A stretch of 64,000 nucleotides of DNA from Cellulomonas wangleii (lineage in GTDB: Bacteria; Actinomycetota; Actinomycetes; Actinomycetales; Cellulomonadaceae): the NCBI RefSeq assembly GCF_018388445.1, contig NZ_CP074405.1, forward strand, positions 1,302,001 through 1,366,000, in the 5' to 3' direction. Positions 7,655 through 34,538 of this stretch are shown here, in pieces. Position 1 is the first letter of the stretch, and each line of letters begins with the position of its first letter. Position numbers and translations under genes: made by a program. Under the pieces are notes generated by a model. That model had not been told where the DNA came from. It saw only the letters and a program-made list of their open reading frames with translations, and searched no databases.

Positions 7655-8761
7655 ATGAGCACCCTGACGACCCCTTCGTCCGAGACCTTCCAGCTCCACC
7701 GCACCGACGCGCCCGTCCCCGACGAGCAGCGCGCGGCCGCGCTCGCCTCGCCGCAGTTCGGCACGGTCTTCACCGACCACATGGCCCGCATCTCGTGGAC
7801 CCACACCGACGGCTGGACCGGGCGGCGCGTGGAGAAGTACGGGCCGCTGCAGCTCGACCCCGCGACCGCGGTCCTGCACTACGGCCAGGAGATCTTCGAG
7901 GGCCTCAAGGCGTACGCCCACCCCGACGGAAGCGTCTGGTCCTTCCGGCCGGAGGCCAACGCGGCACGGTTCACGCGGTCGGCGCGGCGGCTCGCCCTGC
8001 CGGAGCTGCCCGAGGCGGACTTCCTCGGGGCGATCCGCGCCCTGGTCGAGGTGGACCGGGCCTGGGTGCCGACGGGGGAGGAGGCCAGCCTCTACCTGCG
8101 TCCCTTCATGTACGCCTCGGAGCCCTTCCTGGGTGTGCGGGCCTCGCTCGAGGCGGAGTTCCTCGTCATCGCCTCGCCCGTCGGCCCGTACTTCCCGGGC
8201 GGGGTGCAGCCGGTGGCGATCTGGGTGTCGCGTGAGTACCACCGCGCCGGTGCCGGCGGCACGGGCGCGGCCAAGTGCGGCGGCAACTACGCCGCCAGCC
8301 TGCTGCCCCAGCAGGAGGCGTACGCCAAGGGGTTCGAGCAGGTCTGCTTCCTCGACGACCGGACCGGCACCCAGCTCGAGGAGCTGGGCGGCATGAACGT
8401 CGTCGTGGTCCACGCGGACGGCTCCGTGGTGACCCCGGCGGTCTCCGGCACGATCCTCGAGGGCGTGACGCGCTCGTCGATCCTCACGCTGCTGCAGGAG
8501 GCGGGGCACGAGGTCGCGGAGCGGCCCGTGCTGCTCGACGAGCTGCGCCGCGGCCTGGCGGACGGCAGCGTCAGCGAGGTGTTCGCGTGCGGGACGGCGG
8601 CCGTCATGACGCCGATCGGGCGGCTCGCGAGCGACGACTTCGACCTCGTCGTGGGCGACGGCCAGGCCGGACCGGTGACCATGCGCATCCGTGAGCAGCT
8701 CACCGACATCCAGTACGGGCGCGCGGCGGACACGCACGGCTGGATGCGCCGCCTGGTCTGA
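7655..8761 (+). CDS. ilvE: branched-chain amino acid aminotransferase
   Basis: PLP-dependent fold-type IV transaminase that makes Ile, Leu and Val from their 2-oxo acids with glutamate as donor. The 368-residue protein has the class IV pattern HYGQEIFEGLKAY, the Schiff-base lysine in AAKCGGNYAASL (about Lys207), the LEELGGMNV segment, and the C-terminal GTAAVMTPIG phosphate-binding loop. ATG at 7655 follows a GAAAGG ribosome site; longer upstream frames lack one. It lies 117 nt after leuB, so the two may share a transcript, and a strong hairpin follows. Length matches mycobacterial IlvE. Confidence 0.96.
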   Translation: MSTLTTPSSETFQLHRTDAPVPDEQRAAALASPQFGTVFTDHMARISWTHTDGWTGRRVEKYGPLQLDPATAVLHYGQEIFEGLKAYAHPDGSVWSFRPEANAARFTRSARRLALPELPEADFLGAIRALVEVDRAWVPTGEEASLYLRPFMYASEPFLGVRASLEAEFLVIASPVGPYFPGGVQPVAIWVSREYHRAGAGGTGAAKCGGNYAASLLPQQEAYAKGFEQVCFLDDRTGTQLEELGGMNVVVVHADGSVVTPAVSGTILEGVTRSSILTLLQEAGHEVAERPVLLDELRRGLADGSVSEVFACGTAAVMTPIGRLASDDFDLVVGDGQAGPVTMRIREQLTDIQYGRAADTHGWMRRLV

Positions 8762-30671: not shown

Positions 30672-30941
30672 TCAGCCCGCCGGCGTGAGGACGTCGGCGA
30701 CCGACGCCAGGAGCCGGCGGCGCAGCACGTTCGCCCGCTCGGCGTGGTCCCGCTGGCGGCGCACGTACTCCGCCTTGCCCTCGGGCGTCTCGACGGCGAC
30801 GGGCTCCAGCCCGTACGACGTCACGTCGTAGGGGCTGGCCTGCATGTCCGTGGTGCGGATCTCGCGGGCCAGCTCGAAGCAGTCGAGCAGCAGCTCACCG
30901 GGGACCAGCGGGCCGAGCTTGAGCGACCACTTGTACAGGTC
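30672..30941 (-). pseudogene. displaced 3' end of the split glycosylase-like gene
   Basis: These 90 codons (including stop) encode the native C-terminus of the gene whose 5' part lies at 33841-34479. The peptide runs from DLYKWSLKLGPLVPGELLLD to the end and is about 75% alike to the corresponding part of the intact chimera. It is high in GC like the chromosome. Joining base 30936 to 33841 across the repeat would restore a continuous frame of 300 residues. A GTG at 30971 could start a 99-residue product, but the first ~10 residues would come from the insertion. Most likely not translated. Confidence 0.8.
30936..30941. repeat. direct repeat CAGGTC, left junction
   Basis: Left copy of the 6-bp direct repeat that bounds the insertion. 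It corresponds to codons Asp-Leu (GAC CTG) on the minus strand, the point where the native gene is interrupted. Confidence 0.75.
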
Positions 30942-31055
30942 TTTGGTGGCGCGCAGGGGCACGAGCGGCACTCCGGTGCAGTTGGACTACCGGCGATGCG
31001 GGTGTCCGAATTCGGCTCTAGCGTGCGCTGCCCTACAGGAGATAGGTTTCTTCCT

Positions 31056-32648
31056 ATGGCACTTACTCCGATCAATCGTGCGCTTAACCAAATACCAAAG
31101 CGCGCAGAGAAGCGCGAGTCGGTGCATCTGCATGAGACCTTCGTCGATTCCGGTATCGCAGATGTCTTGGATGCGATCGACCACCAGGTCTTGAATGGTA
31201 GGCGCGGCACCGGTAAGACGCATGCGCTGACATATCTTGCTGCGCACCGCAGGGGCGAAGGTGATATTGCCGTCTACCTAGACTTGAGAACAATTGGTTC
31301 GCCAGATGGAATCCTGGGCGCAGGGCCGGCCACCGTAACCGAGCGCGCCGCCAATTTGCTGGTGGATTTACTCGGGCAGATGCGCGAGTCGCTGCTAAAC
31401 GCGGTGATGGCCGATGATTCTATGCTCGACGATGAGCAACTGATAGAGAAGATGGATGAACTGCTGGCGGCCATGACGTCGGTGAGGGTCGCCGGTGAGA
31501 TCCAAATCGACCGGGAGGACGAGTCGACGTCAGCACGGAAGCGGGGCGGGCATCTATCCGGGAAACTCGCACCCGCGCCGTCGCTTGAGGTCCGGGTGGA
31601 GGCGGCTGGAGAGACTGCGGAACGCACGGTGCTTCGCGAGACGAGGCGCGGATCAGAGCGCTTGGCGCTAAACTTTAGTGAACTGTCACAGGCATTGCGC
31701 GAACTCGGCACGGCCTTGGGGCGACGCAGAGTTTGGCTGTTGCTCGATGAATGGACCAGTGTGCCAAGGGATGTGCAGCCATACCTTGCGGCATTCCTAG
31801 TCAGGTGTGTACTGCCTCAGCAGCGATTTACTGTAAAGATTGCGGCGATCGAGCAACAGGCAAATTGGCGGCAGGAAGTAGATGGTCAGATGGTCGGCAT
31901 TGAGCTTGGTGCCGATATGAGCGGTTCATTGACACTCGATGACTTCATGGTGTTCGAATCTAATGAGGACCGATCGCGATCGTTCTTCCTGGGTCTACTC
32001 TTCAAGCACCTTACGTCGCGCGGGGACGATGTGGTGCAGGTGGACGGCCTGAAAGACACCTCGGATGTCGTGCGCCTAGGGTTTACCGACACTAGGGCCT
32101 TTGACGAACTTGTGCGAGCCGCCGAGGGTGTACCGCGAGATGCGCTTCACATCGCCGCAGATGCAGCTCGGAAGGCGGGCGAGGCCAAGATCTCTGTGCC
32201 TTTGGTTCGCGAGGCGGCTCGAGCGTGGTACCAGTCGGACAAGGTGCGCCCTATTGAGAGCCGAGAAGAGTCAAAGAGTCTGCTGAACTGGATAATCGAG
32301 AAGGTGATTCGGCAGAAGCGCGCCCGGGCGTTCCTCGTAAGCGAGAGAGACTCCCGTGACCCACTACTACTCTCACTATTCGATGCACGCGTCCTTCATG
32401 TAGTTCGACGTGGATATTCGTCGCAGGATCACCCAGGTGAGCGGTACGAAGTCTGGGTAATCGATTACGGCGCGTACGTCGACTTGATTCAAACTAAGAA
32501 CGCAATCCTCGGGGACCTACTCTTTGGCGAAAATGACGAGTTCGCCGAGTACTTTAAGCTCTCGCCCATTGAAGTCCCAAAGCAGGATCTTCGTGCAATC
32601 CGGAGGGCGATTCTGGATCTCAGTGAGTTCTACGCCAAGCGCGTTTGA
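31056..32648 (+). CDS. ORC/AAA-like P-loop ATPase of the insertion
   Basis: A 530-residue soluble ATPase. Walker A is GRRGTGKTH (Lys54), and Walker B is VWLLLDEW (Asp231, Glu232), with a possible sensor-1 strand VKIAAIEQQ after it. Between them lies an insertion of about 100 residues that is acidic and then basic, likely flexible. The C-terminal 200 residues are mixed alpha/beta and could hold a winged helix. The pattern fits the loosely defined ORC-CDC6/Sll1717-like ATPases often found in accessory islands. ATG at 31056 follows AGGAGATAGG. GC content is low, so it is foreign. A defence role is plausible but unproven; no nuclease domain is seen. The 222 nt after it hold nothing I can support. 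Confidence 0.75.
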   Translation: MALTPINRALNQIPKRAEKRESVHLHETFVDSGIADVLDAIDHQVLNGRRGTGKTHALTYLAAHRRGEGDIAVYLDLRTIGSPDGILGAGPATVTERAANLLVDLLGQMRESLLNAVMADDSMLDDEQLIEKMDELLAAMTSVRVAGEIQIDREDESTSARKRGGHLSGKLAPAPSLEVRVEAAGETAERTVLRETRRGSERLALNFSELSQALRELGTALGRRRVWLLLDEWTSVPRDVQPYLAAFLVRCVLPQQRFTVKIAAIEQQANWRQEVDGQMVGIELGADMSGSLTLDDFMVFESNEDRSRSFFLGLLFKHLTSRGDDVVQVDGLKDTSDVVRLGFTDTRAFDELVRAAEGVPRDALHIAADAARKAGEAKISVPLVREAARAWYQSDKVRPIESREESKSLLNWIIEKVIRQKRARAFLVSERDSRDPLLLSLFDARVLHVVRRGYSSQDHPGERYEVWVIDYGAYVDLIQTKNAILGDLLFGENDEFAEYFKLSPIEVPKQDLRAIRRAILDLSEFYAKRV

Positions 32649-32870
32649 ATCAACCCTCCTTGTGTTGAGGTGTAGGCCAATGCGCGACGCGTCGCCGCAT
32701 CGTGTTTGGCCGATCTGCGCCGATCTTTTCCGTTCGCTGTCTCCTGTGCGCCTAACTGCCTCGACTAATAGAGTCGTCGACGTCGAAAGTTGTGATATCA
32801 CAGGCCGAGGCGCGTACGTCCGTTTTGTGACGGACTTCTGGAGCGAGTCTAGAGAAGTGAGTTAGTCTGC

Positions 32871-33380
32871 CTAATGCGTAGAGGGCGCATTCCAGCGAGG
32901 TCCTACTGGGAAGCGGAAGGGGTCCGATGTGATAGTCTTGCCCGTAGACAAATTTACCTTTACACGCATCTCTAGATAGCCTTCCGGGTCGATTAGCCCA
33001 CTGCATTGAGTGTGGACCTGACAGAACCATTCGGCCTGCGCGCCATCTTCCAGTCGGCGATGCTCCATACTCGGGTGATCAGTCTTGACGCCTACTCGCA
33101 GGTCGATCGGCTCTGTAGAGTAGGTGGTCGAAAGAACCTGCCCGGGCTGCATGGCGGCGACGGGCTCAGGCATCGGTGGGCTCACGGTGACGGGTCGCCC
33201 ATGGTTGATCACGGTGACCTTCAGTGAGAACGAGTTGGTGACAGACCCGTCAGGACCCGGGGCGGCGGTTGTGACGATGGCGGTGCCGATCCGGATTCGC
33301 CGCCGGTGTTGGCTCCAGAGCGCAAGCCCTGAGAGCAGCAGTGCAAGCAGTGCGAGAGCGTTCTCTCCAAGCCAGGTCAT
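32871..33380 (-). CDS. small membrane-anchored protein of the insertion
   Basis: A 169-residue protein with one N-terminal transmembrane helix (LALLALLLSGLALW, about residues 8-21), an Arg-rich stop-transfer stretch, and a soluble domain rich in beta strands (FSLKVTVINHGRPVTV ... LSTTYSTEPIDLRV ... LEMRVKVNLSTGK). The domain could be immunoglobulin-like. No named family is recognised. ATG at 33380; the open frame upstream is not conserved. It is convergent with the ATPase gene and of the same low GC, so both probably arrived together. Topology is membrane-attached; whether the domain faces the cytosol cannot be decided from sequence alone. Confidence 0.6.
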   Translation of the reverse strand: MTWLGENALALLALLLSGLALWSQHRRRIRIGTAIVTTAAPGPDGSVTNSFSLKVTVINHGRPVTVSPPMPEPVAAMQPGQVLSTTYSTEPIDLRVGVKTDHPSMEHRRLEDGAQAEWFCQVHTQCSGLIDPEGYLEMRVKVNLSTGKTITSDPFRFPVGPRWNAPSTH

Positions 33381-33444
33381 GGATGGATGATGCACAGAGA
33401 TGACAGCCTGTGTCCCGTGGGCAGCCCACAGAGGGGTGAGGCGC

Positions 33445-34479
33445 TCACTTTGTCGGGCTGGGACTCGCCGATGTGGGGGCTGACCGAGCGGCAGCGCATT
33501 GCGCAGATAGGCGGGCCCGGAGGTCGTTGGACCGATCGGCGTAGTCGCGTTGGCGGCGGACATACTCGTGCTTGCCTTCGGCTGTCTCAATCTTGATCGG
33601 TTCCAGCCCGTAGGGAGACACGTCGTACGGCGAGGCCCGCATGTCGGTGTAGCGGATCTCGATCGCGAGCTCGAAGCAGTCAAGTAGTAGGTCACCCGGA
33701 ACCAAGGGTCCCAACTTCAGGGCCCACTTGTAGCAGTCCATCGCCGCATGGAGGCAGCCGGGCTGCTCGTAGAGCATCTGCGTCTCGCGCGTGAGCGGAG
33801 GAGGCTCGGGCGCCTCCGAGGTGCCTGTAATCCCGTCCAGCAGGTCCATGTTGGCGTGCAGGCAGCCGGGCTGCTCCATCGCTGTCTGCGTCTCACGCGT
33901 CGGGACGAGCGTGTTGCGCCCGACGGCCTCGGGGGTGAAGAACCGGAACGCGTCGACGTGGGTGCACCGGATGCGGTGCCCCTCCACCACCGCGTCCGTC
34001 CCGGCCCCGCCGAGGCGCAGGGGCAGGGAGTGCCGGTGCTCGCCGTCGGGCTCGCGGTAGACCATCGCCCACTCGTGCAGGCCGAAGCACCCCGTCGCCG
34101 CGGGCCGGGACGCGGTGGCGTCCAGCAGGCCGGTGACGAACCGCACGGTGTCCCCCCGCGCGTCGAGGAATGCCGCCAGGTCGAGGCACACCGTGCCGTC
34201 GTCGTCGGTGCGGTACCAGCGCCAGGCGCCCTGGGGCGCGGGTCCGTCGGGCTCCGGTGCCAGCGCCACGCCTGCGCCGGGGTGCCACCGACGCAGCTGC
34301 CCGGGGGTGGCCGGGTAGTACTCGAACAGGAAGTCCTCGATCGCGTGCTTCTCGTGCCGGGAGCGCCGCGCGCGGTGGCCCGCGGTGAGCTCGTCGGCCC
34401 GCGCGGCGTGCGCGTCGGCGCGGGCACGCCACCGCGCCGCGTCGAGCACGGTGACGGTCGGGTGGGGTCGGGGGTCCAC
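33445..34479 (-). CDS. chimeric 3-methyladenine DNA glycosylase-type protein
   Basis: A 344-residue protein of a family usually annotated in actinobacteria as 3-methyladenine DNA glycosylase; direct evidence for that activity is thin. The N-terminal 213 codons are chromosomal (high GC) and run to HANMDL. After the junction comes a 17-residue linker of the insertion (LDGITG...), then a second copy of TRETQ...EQPGCLHA and the foreign C-terminus CYKWALKLGPLVPGD. The result stays in frame but repeats about 20 residues. The GTG at 34479 has TACGCT exactly 6 nt upstream (leaderless); an ATG at 34503 is a less likely alternative. Whether the fusion is functional is unknown. Confidence 0.8.
   Translation of the reverse strand: MDPRPHPTVTVLDAARWRARADAHAARADELTAGHRARRSRHEKHAIEDFLFEYYPATPGQLRRWHPGAGVALAPEPDGPAPQGAWRWYRTDDDGTVCLDLAAFLDARGDTVRFVTGLLDATASRPAATGCFGLHEWAMVYREPDGEHRHSLPLRLGGAGTDAVVEGHRIRCTHVDAFRFFTPEAVGRNTLVPTRETQTAMEQPGCLHANMDLLDGITGTSEAPEPPPLTRETQMLYEQPGCLHAAMDCYKWALKLGPLVPGDLLLDCFELAIEIRYTDMRASPYDVSPYGLEPIKIETAEGKHEYVRRQRDYADRSNDLRARLSAQCAAARSAPTSASPSPTK
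33841..33846. repeat. direct repeat CAGGTC, right junction
   Basis: Right copy of the 6-bp direct repeat. On the minus strand it is the same GAC CTG codon pair as at 30936-30941 and lies in the same reading phase. Confidence 0.75.
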
Positions 34480-34538
34480 CGCCCCAGCGTAGGTCGCGTG
34501 CATTTGCCGTCGTCCGGGCCGCCCGGCAGGGTGTCGTC

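Follow-up and report, generated by a model that had tools for sequence, protein, structure and literature searches.

How can a conserved protein gene be cut in its interior by foreign DNA and still be read to a complete end? The question is raised by an element of 2,905 bp in Cellulomonas wangleii (assembly GCF_018388445.1, contig NZ_CP074405.1), which lies in a stretch of 64,000 nucleotides (positions 1,302,001 to 1,366,000 of the forward strand) that is called the window below and whose own numbering is used throughout. A gene on the minus strand is split there after codon 220, and its frame is kept by a copy of the gene's own 3' part that the element brings along, here termed the recap; the displaced native 3' part is termed the orphan. 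Insertions were found at the same codon position in 12 integrants from several actinobacterial families, and a large serine recombinase (LSR) is encoded at the border in four of these. As judged by comparison of these sequences, the site is a serine-integrase attachment (att) site, an attB, inside a protein gene, where some integrants recap the gene and others truncate it. Genomes are referred to by number, that of the window being G000.

The interrupted gene and its empty counterpart

The window genome is a single contig of 4.08 Mb, in which a search with the target gene gave one match. A place in or near Cellulomonas is indicated by the nearest named records for the target gene and by the Cellulomonas records that stand among the members of the genus in two trees. 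The gene was placed in no family by Pfam and NCBIfam scans; a plasmid homologue is annotated as 3-methyladenine DNA glycosylase, a name taken from one plasmid record. Homologues were found in five plasmid records, with identities of 46–67%. The features of the locus, on the minus strand unless stated otherwise, are as follows.

33445..34503, minus: recapped target gene, 352 residues (translation of the open reading frame, ORF; start codon not proven)
33844..34503, minus: host-derived 5' part, 220 codons, ending in ...EQPGCLHANMD (junction comparison)
33841..33846, minus: left border core GACCTG (border alignment)
33796..33843, minus: translated linker LLDGITGTSEAPEPPP, 16 residues (in-frame translation)
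33829-33820, minus: left att arm TACAGGCACC, inside the linker; its register matches that of TGCAGGCACC in G016 and G067
33445..33795, minus: element-borne recap, which replaces the C-terminus (translation and composition)
32871..33380, minus: cargo ORF 2, 169 residues, N-terminus hydrophobic by eye
31056..32648, plus: cargo ORF 1, a P-loop ATPase of 530 residues, ORC-CDC6-like (PF24389, E 5.8e-8)
30942..30961, minus: right att arm, preceding the core; TGCCCCTGCGCGCC.. has a diverged counterpart, TTGCCTGCAC.., in G067 and G030
30936..30941, minus: right border core GACCTG (border alignment)
30672..30941, minus: orphan, an open frame without a 5' part, 88 codons from the core

A preliminary description, made from the letters of the window alone, had placed the borders at two copies of CAGGTC in one reading phase and had joined the flanks into a gene of 300 codons. 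It had further held that the insertion supplies a diverged C-terminal copy of lower G+C content (GC) in frame, that the target is the interior of a protein gene and that no recombinase is visible. Most of this was borne out. The repeat stands at 30936-30941 and 33841-33846 and reads GAC CTG (Asp-Leu) on the minus strand, in equal phase at both borders. The flanks do join into one gene, but its length is 308 codons (220 + 88) and not 300. The linker and the copy behind it are translated in frame with the host part; the copy begins with LTRETQ, and the 20 codons upstream of the split are also repeated in it. Neither cargo ORF matches a recombinase family.

The 6-mer by itself is uninformative, since it occurs 66 times on the plus strand and 67 times on the minus strand of the window, and it is the comparison with relatives that carries the case. 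When the 423 joined bases were aligned with the uninterrupted gene of the nearest relative found (G073), an identity of 93.6% over 424 columns was obtained. The two are colinear, with no gap at the junction, and the single one-base shift lies near the 3' end. Among 81 genomes of the genus, 65 match the 5' part of the target gene, and the two gene halves were found to be adjacent in 108 of 109 loci (28 of 29 in the genus and 80 of 80 on named genome contigs), a test that took only the best-scoring genus loci and is blind to linker-less integrants such as G021. The GC of the element is 59.1% and that of the remaining window 74.3%, and the lowest values for 2.9-kb intervals are those over the element. 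Within the gene, the recap has 62% in the 240 bases that follow the split, and the orphan 72%. It is confirmed that a foreign insertion interrupts a conserved gene and that the frame is kept by the recap. An origin of the repeat by chance, conceivable for so common a 6-mer, was rejected on the comparative evidence. A target-site duplication made by a transposase had been suggested by a repeat of 21 bp in G067; it is disfavoured because G000 shares only 6 bp and because different bases follow the two copies in G067.

Recurrence at one codon position

The recap had been expected to be repeatable at one precise place, and this was found: the combination of linker and recap seen in the window recurs at the same codon position in G016, G030, G067 and G106. 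The recap search of 221 genomes of the family gave at least two matches in seven genomes (G000, G016, G021, G030, G067, G106 and G206), all seven of which are integrants; five of these fall within the 81 genomes of the genus, where 66 have a recap match. A search of 396 genomes of the order with the orphan sequence added G242 and also returned G288, and a profile search of 394 genomes of the class added G656 and G736 and also returned G899. G417 was found through an LSR search of 297 genomes, and L232, an IMG/VR contig, through a viral scan. Because the genome samples overlap, the figure of 12 says how many integrants were found and cannot be read as a frequency. Two of the genomes returned were not counted: in G288 the C-terminal fragment is a stray one and the gene is intact at another place, and in G899 the matches lie at contig ends. 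In G071 the gene meets a contig end without evidence of an insertion.

The outcome for the gene differs between integrants. Linker and recap are present in G000, G016, G030, G067 and G106, and a recap without linker in G021, G242, G656 and G736; in G736 the insertion measures 606 bp and consists of recap, short spacer and orphan only. In G206 a whole second copy of the gene stands next to the truncated host gene (L175:2139-3787). No recap was seen in G417, where 18 residues follow MD before a stop, or in L232, of which 5.9 of 11.9 kb and one border were read; in both the host gene is cut short. Elements of 1.8–2.9 kb that hold a recap and one or two cargo genes are called type A here (G000, G016, G030 and G067). 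No carrier of a recap was found among 50,697 phage records, nor in IMG/VR with a Cellulomonas-type recap as the query.

The stray fragment of G288 lies on the reverse strand of L177 (G288:C9) at about 8125-8589, away from the intact gene. It comprises C-terminal sequence of the gene, including CLHAGMD and the core, and its neighbours resemble metal transporter genes by eye.

Serine recombinases and the att site

LSRs are found at the border in G106, G656, G417 and L232, with distances from ORF start to the core GAC of 26 bp in G106, 28 bp in L232, 30 bp in G656 and 33 bp in G417, the start codons having been set by a mechanical ORF rule. The element of G106 is an island of 21,278 bp whose LSR has the Pfam domains Resolvase, Recombinase and Zn ribbon. 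That of G656 is a tailed prophage of 48,085 bp with genes for terminase, portal, major head, tape measure and Dit. Both recombinases are called integrases by PHROGs. The proteins of G417 and L232 were recognised as LSRs through similarity (39% between the two, and 39% between L232 and G106), and the identity among G106, G656 and L232 is 34–39% over the aligned part. Among 62 LSR loci scanned (2.2–11.4 kb each, G656 not being one of them), five lie beside the target gene and represent three distinct LSRs; most LSRs lie elsewhere. A search of IMG/VR with the G106 LSR gave no relative at the sensitivity used, and two relatives of the G656 LSR (40–48%) were not beside the target gene within the flanks fetched.

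In G417 a second copy of the LSR is found at a distance of 52,638 bp; the 5,771 bases that lead up to the border are 98.8% identical between the two. What follows the core of this second copy is the same sequence as the left border of the split gene, which is on another contig; for this reason the locus is read as an apparent tandem array with an att site at its inner junction, though an assembly error is possible. The 5' and 3' parts of the gene, which are on different contigs, presumably come from one integration. The near-identical copies are located at L261:9741-11260 and L260:4380-5800, and the att-site junction follows one of them.

The boundary repeat proposed earlier holds for the window element; CAGGTC proved to be only the version of the core found in G000. 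When six integrants were aligned on both sides of the insertion, ATGGAC was shared by five of the six and GAC by all six. The best dyad of the att sites is centred on the G^A bond of GAC in G106 (12 of 24), G206 (12 of 24), G656 (15 of 24) and G417 (19 of 24); in the dyad scan the index of the G417 site was shifted by one base, so that its true centre is at offset +1 there. With all centres allowed, the dyad is significant in G656 and G417 only. In the type A elements, a left arm lies at one fixed distance (TACAGGCACC in G000, TGCAGGCACC in G016 and G067, TGCACACTCC in G030). The same position, the LSRs at the border and the att dyads centred on one bond are the grounds on which the site is taken to be a serine-integrase attB. 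The preliminary description had also pointed to an insertion mechanism that may be undescribed. This was not upheld, as four other integrants at the same place have an LSR at the border; the chemistry of insertion is therefore most likely a known one.

The window element and seven further integrants have no LSR of their own. When eight genomes were searched for a PF07508 recombinase, none was found in five (G000, G030, G067, G021 and G206); G016 has a marginal match elsewhere, G242 has two elsewhere and G106 has its own. It is likely that an LSR also moved the window element, with the shared target speaking for this and the missing dyad (8 of 24, p 0.52, not significant) against it.

Origin of the recap and selection on it

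Recaps have a GC of 59–65% and orphans one of 70–74%, so that the recaps are element-like and foreign to their hosts in composition; both flanks follow the hosts. In a tree of the 5' parts, seven integrants are scattered (seven changes, at least five of them forced) and no two are sisters. G000 groups with G073 (supports 99/99), G030 with C. hominis and two other members of the genus (100/94) and G016 weakly with G015 (92/21); G067 has no resolved place. The tree of orphans gives G000 with G073 (99/91), G030 in the same group as before (98/91) and G016 with G015 (96/91), with weak support for G067. The four type A recaps, by comparison, form one clade (97/81) together with the uninterrupted genes of G008, G022 and G040 and with the copies of G021.

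The rate of nonsynonymous substitution (dN) between type A recaps is 0.09–0.19 and that of synonymous substitution (dS) 0.9–2.1, which gives a dN/dS of about 0.06–0.21, with dS near saturation. Since this ratio is well below 1, the recap is read as protein and is under purifying selection as such. The genes of G008, G022 and G040 and the fused gene of G021 read DCYKW at the core. It may be that such uninterrupted DCYKW genes are sources of recaps, healed former integrants or alleles with an altered attB. The uninterrupted gene of G079 also reads DCYKW and not DLYKW at this point, as do those of G008, G022 and G040.

Proposed mechanism and alternatives

It is considered probable that the window element is a small cargo cassette which integrates site-specifically at an attB in a conserved actinobacterial gene and whose LSR is most likely supplied from elsewhere. 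An LSR encoded by a temperate phage or by a larger island that uses the same attB would act in trans on the cassette. Recombination at GAC would join the 5' part of the host gene in frame to the left att arm of the cassette, which would be translated as the linker and followed by the cassette-borne copy of the 3' part, and the host's own 3' part would stay behind as an orphan beyond the right border. On this account an LSR and not a tyrosine recombinase would have moved the window cassette, and would have done so in trans; the recapped protein presumably works, and the cassette could still excise.

Several results weigh against this account. A search of the window genome gave no PF07508 match and, at E 1e-20, nothing related to the G106 LSR, and the interior of the G106 element also encodes a tyrosine recombinase (Phage_integrase), at 5.8 and 14.5 kb from the borders. 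The dyads are weak in G106 (p 0.18) and G206 (p 0.23) when all centres are allowed, and those of the four type A elements reach 8, 9, 7 and 9 of 24 at the bond in GAC (p 0.52, 0.12, 0.43 and 0.10). Because their own dyad is not significant, the use of an LSR by type A elements without one is a matter of inference. The borders of G067 share 21 bp, which is more like the core of a tyrosine recombinase. Type A recaps have DNA identities of 0.73–0.80, and the host 5' flanks of 0.77–0.82, so that the recaps are no more alike than the flanks and give no sign of recent exchange. Over the whole tree the recap label is not clustered (89 of 500 shuffles were as low), the two copies of G242 pair together (99/93) and those of G106 have no resolved place.

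Some of these points would be accommodated if the integrase of type A elements were a tyrosine recombinase, acting at some 20 bp of common core, and only the attB were shared with the LSR elements. The 21 bp of G067, of which apparent decayed versions are seen in G030, G016 and G000, would be such a core, and the lack of a significant dyad and the Phage_integrase protein inside G106 agree with it. However, no tyrosine integrase was found in the type A cargo (Pfam was run on five proteins, and the sixth, from G030, is 91% identical to the ApeA-type protein of G067). The shared stretches of G000 (GACCTG) and G030 (AACATGGAC) overlap in GAC only, which is too short for a common overlap of 6–8 bp unless it has later changed. 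Moreover, in each of the four integrants where a border recombinase was found it is an LSR; no search for tyrosine recombinases was made in other parts of the host genomes. Such an origin is regarded as improbable. A greater chance, though still short of an even one, is given to the view that the small elements are remnants of prophages or islands which lost almost all of their content in place, the LSR included, and kept the recap because the gene was needed. The larger LSR-bearing elements at the same site agree with this, as do the 606-bp insertion of G736 and the absence of a PF07508 recombinase from five of the seven searched hosts of LSR-less integrants. Against decay stand the tight packing of G016, G030 and G067 (53–63 bp) and of G000 (114 bp) and the nature of the cargo, as four of five proteins have no PHROG match and the fifth matches two families of unknown function. 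This compact build favours cassettes moved in trans, and G736 indicates that shrinking may also happen.

Two accounts without site-specific recombination were also weighed. Exchange of the whole interrupted allele between strains by homologous recombination would be possible through the conserved gene sequence on both flanks, and it would explain why recaps resemble the flanks in DNA identity and why G030 and G067 share an ApeA-type cargo gene at 88% DNA identity. It is nevertheless very unlikely, as the interrupted alleles are not sisters in the scattered flank tree, the cargo differs apart from that pair, and further families have insertions as well, with LSRs beside the border. A purely internal origin, in which the gene's 3' part was duplicated in tandem and diverged later without foreign DNA, has practically no chance. 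It would account for two C-terminal copies in the same orientation, but unrelated genes at 59% GC lie between the copies, recap and orphan differ in GC (62% against 72%), and the recap groups with the recaps of other elements and not with the host. The duplication was thus refuted by composition, recap tree and intervening genes, in agreement with the foreign insertion that the preliminary description had preferred.

The cassette account can be extended further, if only tentatively. Type A elements would be a family of integrase-less cassettes, made of a translated half att site, an in-frame recap and one or two cargo genes, some of them defence-like, that are moved in trans by serine integrases of temperate phages using the same attB. 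Such cassettes might also exclude these phages, since they would occupy the attB and, in the recap, change its core codon (DLYKW or DVYKW to DCYKW). In this complete form the proposal is thought rather unlikely.

Comparison with known elements

Gene rescue is known for elements with tyrosine integrases. Element e14 and phage 21, which integrate in icd, bring their own 3' end of a protein gene; a tyrosine integrase is used, and the replacement is shorter than in the window element. The islands and prophages at dusA are described as using tyrosine recombinases and as replacing the 5' end of the gene (PMC4482086). They resemble the present elements in having one site inside a conserved protein gene, a new coding piece and variable cargo; they differ in that the attB of the target gene serves LSRs and it is the last third of this gene that is exchanged. 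In the dnaJ2 prophages of Bifidobacterium, likewise actinobacterial and inserted in coding sequence, integration is reported to be followed by reconstruction of the gene; a tyrosine integrase acts at a 35-bp core that overlaps the 3' end, a situation termed unusual (PMC6109161). A tyrosine integrase of the dusA or dnaJ2 type was not found in the window element.

Among serine-integrase prophages, Bxb1 and those at attB-7, -9 and -17 of M. abscessus are reported to lie in open reading frames and to disrupt the gene (PMC8092301). The serine integrase, the short core (5–8 bp) and the attB in a coding gene are common to both groups, and the 6-bp GACCTG shared by attL and attR of the window element is a core of this kind. 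Several integrants here recap the gene, unlike these prophages; G417 and L232 resemble the disrupting kind. The SCC/ECC cassettes are described as moved by large serine recombinases into rlmH, with variable cargo and inverted repeats at the att sites (PMC6222049). They are similar in being LSR-moved cassettes in a conserved gene, whereas the gene here is cut mid-way and the small cassettes have no LSR. An rlmH target and ccr genes were not found, the target homologue being named otherwise and the genome having no PF07508 recombinase. In a survey of LSR targets, diverse LSRs were reported to converge on one coding site, in a prolyl isomerase gene; targets are treated there as disrupted, and the word glycosylase does not occur in the main text (PMC10083194). 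A literature search confined to open-licence papers gave no case of a coding gene recapped by a serine-integrase element, and no such element at the target gene. In the literature searched, gene rescue was thus found with tyrosine integrases and not with serine integrases.

A single attB within a coding gene serves four elements that bear an LSR and eight that do not, with truncation, a whole spare gene copy, linker plus recap and recap without linker as outcomes. This range allows one to ask directly what selects for the rescue of a gene by a mobile element. The att site of G417 and the LSRs adjacent to the borders are pairs worth testing as tools for site-specific integration. Should the small cassettes be moved in trans, they would amount to satellites of which only cargo and att sites are left.

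Cargo genes

The ATPase of the window element weakly matches mad8 of the MADS defence system (E 1.7e-5), and its start lies 114 bp from the core. Cargo ORF 2 was assigned to no family in Pfam, NCBIfam and defence scans. Neither of the two ORFs matches an integrase family, and the cargo has no PHROG match and no structural or packaging genes. In G016, G067 and G030 the last cargo stop is 53 to 63 bp from the core. With the exception of G030 and G067, cargo differs between elements. These two share an ApeA-type protein (PF18862 in G067; 91% amino acid and 88% DNA identity) without a PADLOC match, and because their recaps are only 76% alike, cargo and recap may have had separate histories. The cargo of relatives includes SIR2/ThsA-like, IetA-like and type I restriction-modification proteins, and that of G206 fell in no family in Pfam and PADLOC scans. 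A protein of 419 residues in G016 (L146:4241-5500) and one of 255 residues in G030 (L151:15252-16019), which match no Pfam or PADLOC family, are candidates for unknown defence or mobile-element functions. The insert of G242 (L176:4247-8968) carries ParA-like, SIR2/ThsA-like, DUF6414 and IetA-like AAA genes, possibly a multi-gene defence set.

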